A DNA stretch of 49,964 bases, taken from a virus. Location of the stretch: IMG/VR virus record IMGVR_UViG_3300009164_000109, positions 1 through 49,964 of that record; one strand, given 5' to 3'. This document shows positions 12,872 to 18,373 of the stretch, one piece after another (position 1 is the stretch's first letter; every line of letters begins with the position of its first letter). The translations under genes and the position numbers were made by a program. The notes beneath the pieces are model-generated. The model had not been told where the DNA came from. It saw nothing but the letters and a program-made list of their open reading frames with translations, and searched no databases.

Positions 12872-13597
12872 TTATTTTTTTAAATTATTAATTTTTGTTT
12901 CAATTTTCATTTCATATAATTTGGAAACAAAATCCCAATTTACCACTTTCCAAAAGTTTGTGATATATTCGTCTCGTTTATTTCGATACTTAAGGTAGTA
13001 AGCGTGTTCCCATAAATCTAAACCTAATAGTGGGAACCCTCCATCTTCAATAACATTCATTAATGGGTTGTCTTGATTTGGAGTTGACATAATTTTTAAG
13101 GTATTTCTTGAGGTTAAAACCAACCATACCCATCCGGAACCAAATCTATCTTTGGCAATAGTTTCAAATTCCTTTTTAAAATCAGAAAAATTACCGTATT
13201 GTTTGTTAATTTTTATTAACAAATCACCTTTAAGTTTTGTGGGAGTTGGTGACAACATATTCCAAAACATTGCATGATTAAATGCCCCTCCTGCGTTGTT
13301 CCTTATTGTTTTGTCAAATCGACCAATTGTTTTAATTATTTGTTCTAATTCTAAATCCCCGTATTTTTTTTTTGACAACGCATCATTTAATTTTTTGACA
13401 TAAGACTTGTAATGTTTGTTGTAATGAAATTCCATTGTCTCGGGGTCAATAAATTGTTTCAAGGCAGAATAAGAGTAAGGAAGTTTCTCAATTCCTATTT
13501 TTTTCATTTCTGTAATTAACATATTTTTTTCTTTAATTACGTGACCCTCAAGAATTTTTGTTTCTAACTGTTGAATTTTTTGTTCTATTTTTTTCAT
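12872..13597 (-). CDS. sodA: Manganese-type superoxide dismutase
   Basis: The 241-aa protein converts superoxide to hydrogen peroxide and oxygen. After a 35-residue charged extension, the Fe/Mn SOD fold begins at LPYSYSALKQF. Metal ligands are H58 (EFHYNKH), H108 (GGAFNH), D194 and H198 (LDLWEHAYY). H62 and Y66 occupy the substrate-gate positions. Gly104 and Gln175 (NQDNPL) follow the Mn rather than the Fe pattern. All key residues are present, so it is probably active. It lies downstream of the SNF2 helicase with its own TATTTATA element at 13619-13626. Phage-encoded SODs are uncommon; protection of the infected cell is a plausible role. Confidence 0.93.
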   Translation of the reverse strand: MKKIEQKIQQLETKILEGHVIKEKNMLITEMKKIGIEKLPYSYSALKQFIDPETMEFHYNKHYKSYVKKLNDALSKKKYGDLELEQIIKTIGRFDKTIRNNAGGAFNHAMFWNMLSPTPTKLKGDLLIKINKQYGNFSDFKKEFETIAKDRFGSGWVWLVLTSRNTLKIMSTPNQDNPLMNVIEDGGFPLLGLDLWEHAYYLKYRNKRDEYITNFWKVVNWDFVSKLYEMKIETKINNLKK

Positions 13598-13639: not shown

Positions 13640-16486
13640 TTAACGACGCATTTCATTGATTCTCTTTAAAATTTCTTCAGCGGCGTCGGCAGTATTTTGA
13701 TTATCACCCATAACGGTTGCAATCACTTGTTTTTTATTATGAAGTATGTCGTAAATAATTCCCTCAATTGTGTTTTCAAATATCGGGTAATAAACTAGTA
13801 CATTATTTTTCTGCCCATATCTGTATGCCCGGTCTTCCGCCTGTGCATGGTCAGACGGTAAGAATGATAAGTCATTAAAGATTACCGCTTCTGCAGATGT
13901 CAATGTAATACCAACTCCGGATGCTTTAATATTTCCAACAAATACCTTTATCTTATCGTTTTCTTGAAATTGGTCAACACTAAATTGTCTTCCAACTTTA
14001 GACATTGAACCGTCAAGTTTAACCGCAGACTTCCCAAAATGTTCTGTAATTTTATTTAATGAATCTGTAAAGTTACAAAAAATTATAACTTTTTTATCTT
14101 GTTCGATAATATTTTCAGCAATTTCTATTGTTTGACTTATTTTTTCATCTGCAATGATTTGACGAATTTTAGTTAATTTTGTAAATTGAACTGTTAAAGA
14201 TTTTGATTCTTCCGGATTCTTCTCGTACCAATTATAATAATCCCCCATCACTTCCTCATAAAGTTTAGACTTTAATCTTAGATAAACTGGTGTAATAATT
14301 TTGTCGGGTAAATCTAAAACATTTTCTTTTAATCTTCTTAAAGTTAATCCTGCAGTTCTATCTCGTAATTCTTCAAGATTAGATGCTCCTTGAACATTCC
14401 AAATTTTTCTCGGACCAACTTTGAATTGAAAACCCGCACAGTAACGAACCGCATATGCTAACCAATTTTTACTCACAGGTGAATCAATTAAACTCAGTAA
14501 ATTAAAATAGTCCATTGGACGGGAAGTCATTGGAGTACCCGATAATAACCACAATCTATTTATGTTTTTAACAACATCATTAATTAGCTTTGTTCTTTGA
14601 GCTTGAGGATTTTTAATGTAATGACAATTACTAACTAATATTGAATTCGCGAAATAATTATGATTATCTTTAATTTCTAAATCATAGACTCTTGTATTTT
14701 TTGAAGACACATTTGAGGATTTGTCGTAACTTCCTCGTTCCAAAATCTCAATACTTTCCACCCTAACGAATTTAATACTTCTGTTTTTCTTTTGTCTAAG
14801 AATTTCCATTTTTTTGTTTTGTGAGACTTTCCATCTATTTCTATTACAATTTTTTGATGAGTATTTCCAATATCTACTTTGTAACATGGGGGTAAACTTT
14901 TGAATGACAGTTTGACATTTTCTGTTAAAATTGGTAATTCCATTACCCACCCCTCTCCTAATAAATGATGTAGAGTTTCTTGTTGAATAGTTATTTTTCC
15001 ATTCCCTCCCCTTGATAGAAAGGTTCGACCAATTAATTTTTCTCTCATTTTTTCCAAAGTTTCCGGATTGAACATTGGATTTTTTATTTTCATCCTTTCT
15101 GAAGATAATTGGGACATATGTGGATTTTTCATGTGAGTTTTTTTCATATGTTCTGACCAACCCCCATTTTTTTCTATTGTTTTTCTTCTTTTTTCCCTCA
15201 CTTCTGAATCGTTTGACTTTACAATGTTTGAACAAATTACCGAACAATATGTTTTTAACATCATTTTCTTCTCTGTTGTAAATTCCATTAAATTCCCACA
15301 TTTCAAACAGGTCTTTTGAAATTTTATTTCTTTTGGTTTCTGAGGTGAAATTTTGTTTTTTATTATTGACGCACAACTTTTTGAACAACTCTTTGACTTT
15401 TTCCAAATTTGTTTCTTTGTTAGTGGTTTCTGACAACATATACAAGTCATCGGTTGTTGTGAGGTCTTTTGCTCTGACATATCCTTTATTATTTGTATAG
15501 AATTTATGATTATCTGTACATTCTATAAATAGTCCGTTGTTGAGTTTTATTTTGTATATAATGTTTTTATTTTTTCTAATCCATCTACATATTTCTTTAT
15601 ACTCTAATTTTTTTTCTTTGTGATTAAATGTTAATATTTTAACATCCAACCCATTTTCCACAACATCACCAATATTCATTTTACCTCTTTCAGTCATAAT
15701 TTTTGTATCATAAGTAAAACATTCGTCAACAATTACTAAATCAAAATTTGATTTTAATATTTGAGACTCATCTTTTTTCTTAAGGTCATGAAAATTCTTC
15801 ATAATATCGTAATTAACGATAACAAAATCATGTTCCGTACTAAATTGTTTACCTTCTGAAATAAAAATTGGTCGGTCAGAATAATTTTCAATCTCTCTTT
15901 TCCAATTGATTTTAAGAGTTGCCGGACAAATAATTAAAATTTTCTTTGCTCCGGTCTCTAACGCAGCCATAATTGTTGAAGTAGTTTTTCCTAATCCCAT
16001 ATCATCGGCAAGGATAAACTTTTTATTCTCAACTAATTTTTGGACAGCTTCTTTTTGATGTTCAAGAGGGGGACGATTAGAGTATTTTGAATAATCAATT
16101 ACAACATCCTTAACTGTATTATCTTTAATGATTGCGGCTTTTGGTAACCAAAAGTGGTGAAGTTCCTCATTCTCAAACACTTTACCCCAAATATGATAAG
16201 CCTTCTCTTTATCACATAATAATTTCTCCACCCAAACCTTTTGTGGTATTTCAGTATACAATTTATCATCCGCAAGTTTTTGTGCAAAGTAAGTGTCAAG
16301 AATAACCCATTTCTTAGCAACCTTAGGTTGTTTATCGTGATTATTGATAATGTATTCTGATTGACTTCTTGTTGGATAAAATTTCCGATTTAATTGAGAT
16401 TTACGTTTCAATTCAATTAAATAATTATTTCCACCTTCGTAATCTTCTAATAAAGATAATGCTTTTGATTCTAAACTAACATTCAT
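13640..16486 (-). CDS. SNF2-type DNA helicase/ATPase interrupted by an intein
   Basis: The 948-codon frame encodes a helicase of about 583 aa plus a 365-aa intein. Exteins show Walker A DDMGLGKTTST (161-171), motif II VDE-CH split by the intein, motif III LLSGTPMTSRPMDYF (647-661) and motif VI QAEDRAYRYGQ (882-892), all SNF2-like. T4-like phages use such ATPases in recombination and fork repair. The intein starts at C256 (CFTYDTKIM), carries block B GLFIECTDNHKF (T324, H327), and ends in YFANSILVSN (N620) before Cys+1 (621). Splicing would restore VDECHYIKNP. The middle of the intein frame is K/N/R/S-rich shadow translation of a nested endonuclease. The start overlaps the SET stop by one base. 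Confidence 0.9.
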   Translation of the reverse strand: MNVSLESKALSLLEDYEGGNNYLIELKRKSQLNRKFYPTRSQSEYIINNHDKQPKVAKKWVILDTYFAQKLADDKLYTEIPQKVWVEKLLCDKEKAYHIWGKVFENEELHHFWLPKAAIIKDNTVKDVVIDYSKYSNRPPLEHQKEAVQKLVENKKFILADDMGLGKTTSTIMAALETGAKKILIICPATLKINWKREIENYSDRPIFISEGKQFSTEHDFVIVNYDIMKNFHDLKKKDESQILKSNFDLVIVDECFTYDTKIMTERGKMNIGDVVENGLDVKILTFNHKEKKLEYKEICRWIRKNKNIIYKIKLNNGLFIECTDNHKFYTNNKGYVRAKDLTTTDDLYMLSETTNKETNLEKVKELFKKLCVNNKKQNFTSETKRNKISKDLFEMWEFNGIYNREENDVKNILFGNLFKHCKVKRFRSEGKKKKNNRKKWGLVRTYEKNSHEKSTYVPIIFRKDENKKSNVQSGNFGKNERKINWSNLSIKGREWKNNYSTRNSTSFIRRGVGNGITNFNRKCQTVIQKFTPMLQSRYWKYSSKNCNRNRWKVSQNKKMEILRQKKNRSIKFVRVESIEILERGSYDKSSNVSSKNTRVYDLEIKDNHNYFANSILVSNCHYIKNPQAQRTKLINDVVKNINRLWLLSGTPMTSRPMDYFNLLSLIDSPVSKNWLAYAVRYCAGFQFKVGPRKIWNVQGASNLEELRDRTAGLTLRRLKENVLDLPDKIITPVYLRLKSKLYEEVMGDYYNWYEKNPEESKSLTVQFTKLTKIRQIIADEKISQTIEIAENIIEQDKKVIIFCNFTDSLNKITEHFGKSAVKLDGSMSKVGRQFSVDQFQENDKIKVFVGNIKASGVGITLTSAEAVIFNDLSFLPSDHAQAEDRAYRYGQKNNVLVYYPIFENTIEGIIYDILHNKKQVIATVMGDNQNTADAAEEILKRINEMRR
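14627..15721 (-). other. Intein inside helicase motif II
   Basis: Codons 256-620 of the helicase frame. N-terminal splicing block A begins CFTYDTKIMTERG; block B contains TDNHKF followed by GYVRAKDL; block F is RVYDLEIKDNHNYF; block G is ILVSN followed by Cys. The penultimate residue is Ser rather than the usual His. Splicing would join Glu255 to Cys621. The middle of this frame has no LAGLIDADG or HNH motif; the endonuclease is in another frame. Confidence 0.9.
14677..15480 (-). CDS. Nested Vsr/EDxHD-type homing endonuclease
   Basis: This 267-aa protein is encoded on the same strand as the helicase but in a different frame, entirely within the intein. It has two zinc-knuckle clusters (C13, C15/C16, C32, C36 and C58, C61, C79, C83), a NUMOD-like NPMFNPETLEKMREK (134-148), and a C-terminal Vsr-like nuclease core: E214-I-D216, H220, D229, then GWKVLRFWNEEV (240-251). 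The Vsr-related EDxHD family is known from phage inteins and fractured genes. Its start lies in intein block B and its stop in block F. M11 is an alternative start. It probably cuts intein-free helicase alleles. Confidence 0.85.
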   Translation of the reverse strand: MSEQKTSQQPMTCICCQKPLTKKQIWKKSKSCSKSCASIIKNKISPQKPKEIKFQKTCLKCGNLMEFTTEKKMMLKTYCSVICSNIVKSNDSEVREKRRKTIEKNGGWSEHMKKTHMKNPHMSQLSSERMKIKNPMFNPETLEKMREKLIGRTFLSRGGNGKITIQQETLHHLLGEGWVMELPILTENVKLSFKSLPPCYKVDIGNTHQKIVIEIDGKSHKTKKWKFLDKRKTEVLNSLGWKVLRFWNEEVTTNPQMCLQKIQESMI

Positions 16487-16884
16487 TAAATAATTTCCGT
16501 ATGTGTTCTCCCGTCATTCCAATATGAATCATCTCCATAAAATACAAAAATTTCTTCGTCGGGGTTTATTTTTTTTAAAGAAACAAATTCAAATGTTCTA
16601 TTTTCATAATTTGTTCTCCAATATGCGTTAGGTTCTGATGAGTGATTGTAAATCATTGCACACCCTGTAGGGGCAACTTTTTTTTCCCAATCAATAACAT
16701 TTGATGGGTAGTTAAATCGATAATCAATTAAAATATGTGTGGATTCTCCTTTTGGTATATGCATATCAATAACTGCACATTCCTCAAGTATTTCCCCTTC
16801 CATTATAGTTTGTAGAGCGAAAACACCCAATCCGTGAATTGGACTTTCACTCACATATATTTTGGATGGTGGTAATATCTTCAT
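16486..16884 (-). CDS. SET-domain protein, putative lysine methyltransferase
   Basis: This 132-aa protein is a minimal SET domain: HGLGVFA (17-23), the SAM/pseudoknot motif NHSSEPNAYW (80-89), and a C-terminal INPDEEIFVFYGDDSYW (106-122), in which Y116 fits the catalytic tyrosine. SET proteins transfer methyl groups from SAM to protein lysines. No pre- or post-SET zinc cysteines are present, as in other small bacterial and viral versions. The substrate is unknown; host or virion proteins are both possible. It heads the minus-strand operon and its TAA overlaps the helicase ATG by one base. Confidence 0.85.
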   Translation of the reverse strand: MKILPPSKIYVSESPIHGLGVFALQTIMEGEILEECAVIDMHIPKGESTHILIDYRFNYPSNVIDWEKKVAPTGCAMIYNHSSEPNAYWRTNYENRTFEFVSLKKINPDEEIFVFYGDDSYWNDGRTHTEII

Positions 16885-17250: not shown

Positions 17251-17763
17251 ATGCAAAAATTAGTTCCAATAACAAGATTAGGTAAGTTCTTCGGAGCCGA
17301 AGATTATTCTCTCGACATAGGTATGGGAGAAGAATGGTTATTGGGGGATATGAACTTTACTGTAATTCTTTATAGAGTTGATAGATACAAAACTAAAACG
17401 GATGATGTTTATGGTGAGGTGACCGAAGACGGAATCCAATTCATGGCACCTGTTGAATTACAAGGTTTGGTTCAAGTTTCGGGACCAACCAATAAATTAT
17501 TGGGGAATTCAAAGGTGAGACAATTGGAACCGGGTAATATGAAATTTTCTGTTTATCAAAAAACTCTCGATGATTTGAATGTTCAAGTTTCTTTGGGTGA
17601 TTATTTTGGGTATTATGAAACTGAGGATAAAGTAAGATATTATGTCGTTAGTGATGATGGAGTTGTTGTTTCTGATAATAAACATACATATGCTGGATAT
17701 CGTCCATTCTATCGCACCATAACCGCAACATTTGTCAGTGAAAACGAATTCAGAGGAATATAA
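17251..17763 (+). CDS. Putative virion neck or tail-completion protein
   Basis: The 170-aa protein is strand-rich with TRLGKFFGAEDY at the start, LQGLVQVSGPTNKLLGNSK near residue 70, and a C-terminal HTYAGYRPFYRTITATFV. The conserved aromatic C-terminus and its position in a late structural region suggest a connector or neck protein such as gp14, but the identity is inferred mostly from context. The product has no signal peptide or cysteine pair. It is followed by an HNH gene one base after its stop. Confidence 0.45.
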   Translation: MQKLVPITRLGKFFGAEDYSLDIGMGEEWLLGDMNFTVILYRVDRYKTKTDDVYGEVTEDGIQFMAPVELQGLVQVSGPTNKLLGNSKVRQLEPGNMKFSVYQKTLDDLNVQVSLGDYFGYYETEDKVRYYVVSDDGVVVSDNKHTYAGYRPFYRTITATFVSENEFRGI

Positions 17764-17764
17764 T

Positions 17765-18373
17765 ATGAAAAAATGTAATAAATGTCTCATTGAAAAAGAG
17801 TTTTGTGAGTTTAATAAAAAATTGGACTCCAAAGATGGGTATTACCCATCTTGTAAAGAATGCCGTAAAAAACATCACAAGTTATATTACTCTCAGAAAA
17901 AAAACGAAATATTAAAATATCAAAAAGATTATTACTCAAATAACTCGGAAAAAGTAAAAAATAGAGAAAAAAATAAAAGAAAAAATAATCCGGAGATATT
18001 CAAGGAGTATGAATTAAAAAGAAGGTCAATAAGAAAAGAATACTTATCTAAATACTTTATAACAAGAAGACAAAATGACATTTTATTTAAAGTTTCTGGT
18101 AATCTTAGAAATAGGATAAATAAATTTATTAAAAATAAATCAAAATCCACCGAATTAATTTTGGGTGTATCATTTGATGAGTTAAATATTTATTTGGAAC
18201 AAAAATTTAAAAATAATATGTCTTGGGAGAATTATGGTGAATGGCATATTGACCATATCATTCCTTTATCCTCAGCAAAAACTGAAAAAGAGATATATGA
18301 ATTATGTCACTATACCAACCTACAACCATTATGGGCAGAAGATAATTTAAAGAAAGGGTGTAAAGTATTATGA
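17765..18373 (+). CDS. HNH homing-type endonuclease, second copy
   Basis: The 202-aa product starts at ATG 17765, directly after the preceding stop. It has the N-terminal CxxC pair (C4, C7, C30, C33), a basic helical linker and a C-terminal HNH core with HIDHIIPL, TNLQPLW and EDNLKKG. The C-terminus is nearly identical in protein sequence to the HNH at 6327-7034 while the linker differs. Its TGA overlaps the next ATG, so it is embedded in the structural operon without breaking a gene. Intergenic insertion of a free-standing endonuclease is the simplest explanation. Confidence 0.85.
   Translation: MKKCNKCLIEKEFCEFNKKLDSKDGYYPSCKECRKKHHKLYYSQKKNEILKYQKDYYSNNSEKVKNREKNKRKNNPEIFKEYELKRRSIRKEYLSKYFITRRQNDILFKVSGNLRNRINKFIKNKSKSTELILGVSFDELNIYLEQKFKNNMSWENYGEWHIDHIIPLSSAKTEKEIYELCHYTNLQPLWAEDNLKKGCKVL

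Follow-up and report, generated by a model that had tools for sequence, protein, structure and literature searches.

A probable phage intein with a homing endonuclease encoded out of frame inside it and a 3' seam coding in two frames

In the usual description, an intein is read in a single frame and its homing endonuclease forms a domain of the inserted protein. Split inteins in fractured genes, with an endonuclease gene between the two halves, were reportedly described by Dassa et al. in 2009, and the Vsr-like or EDxHD endonuclease family was first tied to such loci, while the related enzyme I-Bth0305I (PDB 3r3p) lies in a group I intron. The element described here interrupts a SNF2-type helicase gene in IMG/VR virus record IMGVR_UViG_3300009164_000109, positions 1 to 49,964 of which were analysed as one stretch of 49,964 nucleotides (nt), hereafter the window, and it is very probably a mobile intein carrying a homing endonuclease encoded out of frame inside the intein, as judged from sequence comparison and structure models. 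Full-length inteins of the conventional kind, whose LAGLIDADG or HNH endonuclease is in frame, share with it the Hint domain, the position of the endonuclease between the Hint halves and homing into a conserved motif, but their endonuclease is part of the intein polypeptide and is read in one frame. The fractured loci likewise have a separately translated endonuclease between the N-terminal and C-terminal intein parts (IntN and IntC), but the intein there is split, whereas the host open reading frame (ORF) of the window is single and open and its intein halves do not lie on separate ORFs. I-Bth0305I has the same catalytic fold as the nested endonuclease but is not placed out of frame in an intein.

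The nearest published case is the ShiLan element, one of the out-of-frame HNH insertions without a splicing domain in phage methylases (PMC11855218). In the part of that paper considered here, the ShiLan element resembles the present one in carrying a concealed, out-of-frame homing endonuclease ORF within an insertion open in the host frame and in a patchy occurrence in phages, and it differs in that neither splicing domain nor intron was detected, in its HNH nuclease and in a host-frame product predicted to stay in the protein; no seam with folded domains in both frames is described in that part. The window thus has the out-of-frame endonuclease within an open insertion, and differs in the presence of a complete Hint domain. 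The EDxHD family is described in PMC3943268, and other inteins in PMC9403480 and PMC6293099, as far as the sections drawn on here extend. No description of an intein with an out-of-frame endonuclease was found among titles and openings of abstracts, a search that mostly did not cover the subscription literature, and this widespread form of intein, dual-coding at its 3' seam, is apparently undescribed. The gp41-1-type split inteins were considered as a parallel case and set aside: in the three loci examined in full of 50 (L129, L149 and L162), stops lie between the halves, and the intervening ORF, GIY-YIG by eye, ends about 550-700 nt before IntC, so that the endonuclease stops short of it.

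The helicase-intein ORF is a single open frame of 948 codons on the minus strand (window 16486-13640), and the Walker B motif of the SNF2-type helicase is split by an intein of 365 amino acids (aa), as listed in Table 1. The Pfam Intein_splicing match covers intein residues 11-365, and among 20 aligned inteins Cys1, H72 and Asn365 are invariant and T69 occurs in at least 90%, with Cys at the +1 position in the window; the names of blocks A, B, F and G are those that we take to apply to this intein. As expected of an intein, the insertion lies in a conserved active-site motif and intein-less alleles exist. The intein model is mostly confident over residues 1-100, 314-329 and 341-365, and residues 101-313 and 330-340 have a predicted local distance difference test score (pLDDT) below 50; Foldseek matches the model to the solved inteins DnaE, NrdJ-1 and DnaB, and by Pfam and fold match the Hint splicing domain is complete. 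The low pLDDT of residues 101-313 suggests that the region coding only for the endonuclease is a disordered linker in the intein. The penultimate residue of the window intein is Ser, whereas His is usual at this position. That residue would fit a non-working intein, retained as a loop around an out-of-frame endonuclease, and ShiLan-type elements, thought in the part of the paper considered here not to splice, do exist (PMC11855218); this alternative is nevertheless quite improbable, as the Pfam match, the invariant Cys1, H72 and terminal Asn, the Cys at +1 and the Foldseek match to solved inteins all count against it, and a retained insert of 365 aa in Walker B would be expected to abolish ATPase function.

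The endonuclease is Vsr-like (EDxHD), and its entire ORF (804 nt) overlaps the intein frame. Its profile matches I-Bth0305I (E 0.002), and Foldseek places 3r3p and 1vsr (Vsr) within the top five matches of the AlphaFold model, none of them below E 0.001, with a template modelling score to 3r3p of 0.69 by target length. In the alignment of relatives, residues Y200, D203, E214, H220 and D229 are invariant and D216 is present in at least 90%, and both the active-site residues and the fold are those of an EDxHD nuclease. In the reading preferred here, a mobile intein with an out-of-frame endonuclease, the host frame would be read into one helicase-intein precursor, from which the Hint domain (intein residues 1-100 and 314-365) would splice itself out, restoring Walker B as DE/CH, and intein residues 101-313 would be a disordered linker only, the shadow of the endonuclease gene. 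Translation one base later, starting at the internal ATG (15480), would give the separate EDxHD-type endonuclease of 267 aa, which would cut intein-less Walker B alleles (DE/AH) and thereby cause the complete intein to be copied, together with the Cys codon required at +1. Both protein splicing and DNA cleavage are predicted activities.

The open host frame over the endonuclease is far beyond chance. No stop occurs in the intein frame across the endonuclease ORF, and the third frame is dense with stops. Given the endonuclease protein and the codon usage of the window, 25.4 host-frame stops are expected (standard deviation 3.7) and none of 20000 random codings was stop-free; given the host protein, 8.4 stops are expected in the endonuclease frame, which was stop-free in 1 of 20000 random codings. 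A host-frame stop arises where an endonuclease codon ending in T precedes a codon starting with AA, AG or GA, and at such codons a final T was observed in 0/3163 cases over 47 distinct host ORFs, many of them related, compared with 1811/6124 for other endonuclease codons and 1604/4879 for equivalent sites in C-exteins, a control that includes duplicates. In the window alone the figures are 0/93 and 61/173 (Fisher 5e-14). As a control within the same gene, two relatives (L004, 2380-3520; L010, 1729-3570) hold a second, conventional intein with in-frame LAGLIDADG at Walker A, giving two intein architectures within one helicase gene; in its two other frames the conventional intein has 23 and 57 stops in L004, and 55 and 107 in L010, where the stretch counted includes extein.

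The arrangement was likewise observed in relatives retrieved by scans with the endonuclease, the intein and the endonuclease alignment, covering viral contigs, genome contigs and cultured phages (5 records examined among 41 matching). A total of 125 loci with the endonuclease were obtained, 73 of them distinct, and all 73 distinct endonuclease DNAs show the same frame relation with no host-frame stop within the endonuclease match. The five cultured phages CP-T1, 1.088.O, 104E43.1, phi673 and MR14 carry the layout, with only the host-frame protein annotated, as one coding sequence. That the window is an IMG/VR virus record and not an isolate would allow for a frameshift artefact of assembly or sequencing in one metagenomic contig, but the arrangement recurs in all 73 distinct sequences and in the five cultured phages examined, and such an artefact is rejected as practically negligible. 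Besides helicases (SNF2, ResIII/DEAD), the hosts include AAA+ proteins resembling clamp loaders and at least one further protein, with the insertion mostly at the Walker B DE/C position, and the host ORFs of the first 58 loci range from 548 to 1369 codons. In a tree of 71 endonucleases the median end branch is 0.43 changes per column, indicating that even very divergent members retain the layout. Plasmid records matched the endonuclease core over short stretches only (16 records, 0 covering 80%).

Differential conservation was observed along the overlap. Within the window clade, six relatives of equal length, pairwise identity at 14785-14678 is 0.81 in the intein frame, 0.84 in the endonuclease and 0.91 in DNA, and in the middle of the overlap it is 0.52, 0.74 and 0.77, respectively. 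Silent variation at endonuclease codons with an invariant residue falls from 69/93 in the middle to 4/21 in the 3' seam (Fisher 4e-6), with 7/15 in the 5' overlap, while single-coding stretches of the host frame show 27/50 in the intein N-part, 7/13 at the intein C-end and 82/89 over the first 200 C-extein codons. A second line of evidence, which reaches beyond the window clade, comes from the wobble bases of the conserved endonuclease GWxVLR motif in 71 distinct loci. The wobble base of the Gly codon before Trp is G in 55/70 and A in 0/70, as against G in 145/501 and A in 147/501 of control Gly codons, and the intein residue is accordingly Val or Leu, never Met. In the Val codon the wobble base is A or G in 61/62, as against 164/262 in the control, giving mostly Ile or Val in the intein; the Arg wobble base shows no shift (60/71 versus 397/504, p 0.35). 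About 100 bases at the 3' seam are thus selected in both frames in the window clade.

An intein frame that is only passively open, with the endonuclease as sole selected product, stops simply avoided in the host frame and the seam conserved through endonuclease or DNA-level constraint, is accepted for the middle, where the identities of 0.52 and 0.74 and the disordered model fit it. Extended to the seam it would gain from three further clades, in which the constraint was not significant (seam versus middle 6/10 versus 44/61, 6/6 versus 51/53 and 4/6 versus 25/27), with few codons and variation near saturation, but as an account of the whole it is very unlikely, for the silent bases preferred over the 71 loci make the corresponding residues of the intein strand Val/Leu and Ile/Val; in the window clade it is rejected for the seam on the drop in silent variation and on the confident folding of the seam as part of the Hint domain. 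In the models, the seam bases would give folded parts of both products, a beta strand of the intein and the helix end, strand and first C-terminal helix of the endonuclease.

The preliminary description of this locus had proposed true dual coding at 14677-14785, and the conservation in both frames, the silent-variation drop in the window clade and the wobble bases support that proposal; the test of constraint in both frames that it called for was significant in the window clade and not in the three more distant ones. Both ORFs are open where it placed them, its intein segments RVESIEILERG and RVYDLEI lie at 14764-14732 and 14692-14672 in the intein frame, and the endonuclease stop (14679-14677) does straddle host codons 603 and 604, taking in one base of the latter. 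Its account of the overlap needed revision in extent and naming: both frames are coding over those last 109 nt, but the overlap comprises the whole endonuclease. The segment GWKVLRFWNEEV is located correctly (14763-14728), but it is a conserved C-terminal strand and not the Vsr-like core, the catalytic residues E214, D216 and H220 lying upstream. Similarly, the shared bases include the first five residues of block F (RVYDLEIKDNHNYF, 14692-14651) but mostly code for the strand preceding it.

The distance from the endonuclease stop to the intein end differs among the 70 parsed distinct loci, being 50 nt in 23, 8 nt in 12, 44 nt in 9, 11 nt in 9, 65 nt in 7 and 23 nt in 7, with single cases of 20, 5 and -34 nt. 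In the groups with 8-11 nt block F and the greater part of block G lie within the endonuclease ORF. In the 65-nt group it ends just before block F, which is the arrangement, with block F wholly downstream of the endonuclease stop, that had been named as refuting the dual coding; it occurs in 7/70 loci, yet these too share the strand that precedes block F. The overlap with block F as first worded therefore holds for most members and not for all. In the case of -34 nt (L031, 4001-4456) the endonuclease ORF appears to extend about 34 nt beyond the intein, into the C-extein, and if so, extein bases would be dual-coded as well.

Several observations weigh against an intein with a separately translated out-of-frame endonuclease. 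The relatives were retrieved with the nested endonuclease or the intein itself, and the loci are related, so that the p-values are nominal. In L012, a near twin of L010, a deletion close to the seam breaks the intein frame immediately past it, and this locus is either a defective allele or an assembly error. An ATG with a recognisable ribosome-binding motif was found in only 19/73 distinct loci, the window having none at the usual spacing, and 9/73 distinct loci are without ATG in the examined range. The scarcity of clear motifs in most loci, together with an endonuclease frame that in some of them continues without a stop as far as about 370 nt upstream of where the match starts, would be in line with ribosomal frameshifting, by which the endonuclease would be made as a fusion of N-extein, IntN and endonuclease with no internal start, but this seems unlikely when in six loci (L001, L002, L004, L009, L046 and L050) no more than 12 nt of open frame precede a conserved ATG, and when ribosome-binding motifs at the usual spacing precede 20/115 ATGs of the endonuclease region and 33/1302 control ATGs. 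In the window clade the ATG within the intein Gly-Tyr-Val codons is conserved and AAAGGAT precedes it in most members, which suggests that the endonuclease is translated from an internal start.

The distribution of the insertion is consistent with mobility. The intein is absent from 79/80 best-matching helicase C-exteins, in which DE is joined directly, the five inspected alleles reading DE/AH, and the one intein-bearing C-extein of the best 80 reads N/CH after the intein; the intein thus seems to travel with a changed +1 codon. Homing by the endonuclease is predicted from the presence or absence of the intein at the site and from this changed codon. In 3/4 compared intein-less alleles the flanks near the site tend to be less like the window than farther flanks, unevenly so, with no such trend in L206. 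A natural deletion of 552 nt was also observed in L051 as compared with its near twin L046, by which the middle of the endonuclease was lost and the intein frame kept; it ends where the seam strand begins, and the last 150 nt after it show 0 mismatches.

Such an element represents a natural dual-coding system with one read-out per frame, splicing in the first and cleavage in the second, and a natural counterpart of engineered gene entanglement; it implies that annotation misses such endonucleases. We tentatively suggest, as a possibility that is rather doubtful at present, that this entangled intein is a fourth architecture beside the full-length, mini and split forms, in which dual-coded seams at both ends may lock the endonuclease to the splicing domain. 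Point loss or frameshift of the endonuclease near the seams might then also cost the host its helicase, which might protect the selfish gene against decay. The element also seems to have moved between host genes, at Walker B of helicases and of clamp loaders, without losing this layout. It might also be a stepping stone on a route towards split inteins, because one stop codon in the linker frame would be enough to break the gene in two.

Table 1. Features of the helicase gene, its putative intein and the nested endonuclease in the window, with the basis of each assignment.
Feature	Position	Strand	Basis
N-extein of SNF2-type helicase, ending ...VDE (Walker B)	15722..16486	-	Pfam SNF2-rel_dom 4e-22; intein-less relatives continue DE/AH
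Intein reading frame, 365 aa, Cys1 to Asn365, stop-free	14627..15721	-	Pfam Intein_splicing 7e-11; Hint fold in models
Intein block A (CFTYDTKIMTERG), Cys1 nucleophile	15683..15721	-	C1, T10 and G13 invariant in 20 aligned inteins
Intein block B region, residues 63-76 including T69 and H72	15494..15535	-	H72 invariant, T69 at least 90% (20 aligned inteins)
5' seam: end of Hint N-part (intein residues 81-100) common with endonuclease N-terminus; endonuclease ATG within intein codons for GYV	15422..15480	-	AAAGGATATG conserved in most window-clade members; intein model confident to about residue 100; silent variation 7/15
DUF559/EDxHD endonuclease ORF, 267 aa, inside intein; codons start one base after intein codons	14677..15480	-	Pfam DUF559 7.5e-16; I-Bth0305I 3r3p by sequence and fold; pLDDT 92.6
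Middle: functional in endonuclease frame, predicted disordered linker in intein frame (residues 101-313)	14783..15421	-	pLDDT <50; identity intein frame 0.52 versus endonuclease 0.74
3' seam, dual-coded: intein strand 316-328, loop, first block F residues; endonuclease strand 242-247 and two C-terminal helices	14677..14782	-	Coordinates, conservation, models
Intein beta strand 316-328; shifted by one base, endonuclease helix end, strand 242-247 and start of helix 248-253	14738..14776	-	Both models
Intein block F (RVYDLEIKDNHNYF); endonuclease overlap RVYDL only	14651..14692	-	Coordinates
Intein C-terminal block G (NSILVSN), then Cys +1	14627..14647	-	N365 invariant in 20 aligned inteins
C-extein (CHYIKN... 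Helicase_C), stop included	13640..14626	-	Pfam Helicase_C 4e-16

The element seems to change host genes. Closely related endonucleases of L021 and L024 (100/99 support) were observed in different hosts, one in a ResIII-type helicase and the other in a clamp-loader-like gene, and the grouping of clamp-loader hosts as a single clade was tried and is unsupported, requiring 5 changes on the tree with host labels from a simple motif. In L123 (1944-4703) the nested intein lies in a host without helicase match, where the insertion follows WVGIEKF and not DE. The cultured phage records (L057-L061) are of Vibrio, Corynebacterium and Pseudomonas phages, in all of which the nested endonuclease is unannotated. 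In the window, the helicase gene is adjoined upstream by a gene for a SET-domain protein (16486-16884, minus strand, Pfam 2e-13), a gene for an iron/manganese superoxide dismutase is also present (12872-13597, minus strand, Pfam 1e-39), and an ORF on the plus strand (17732-18373), with no Pfam match at E 0.001, resembles an HNH endonuclease by eye (WHIDHIIPLSSA).

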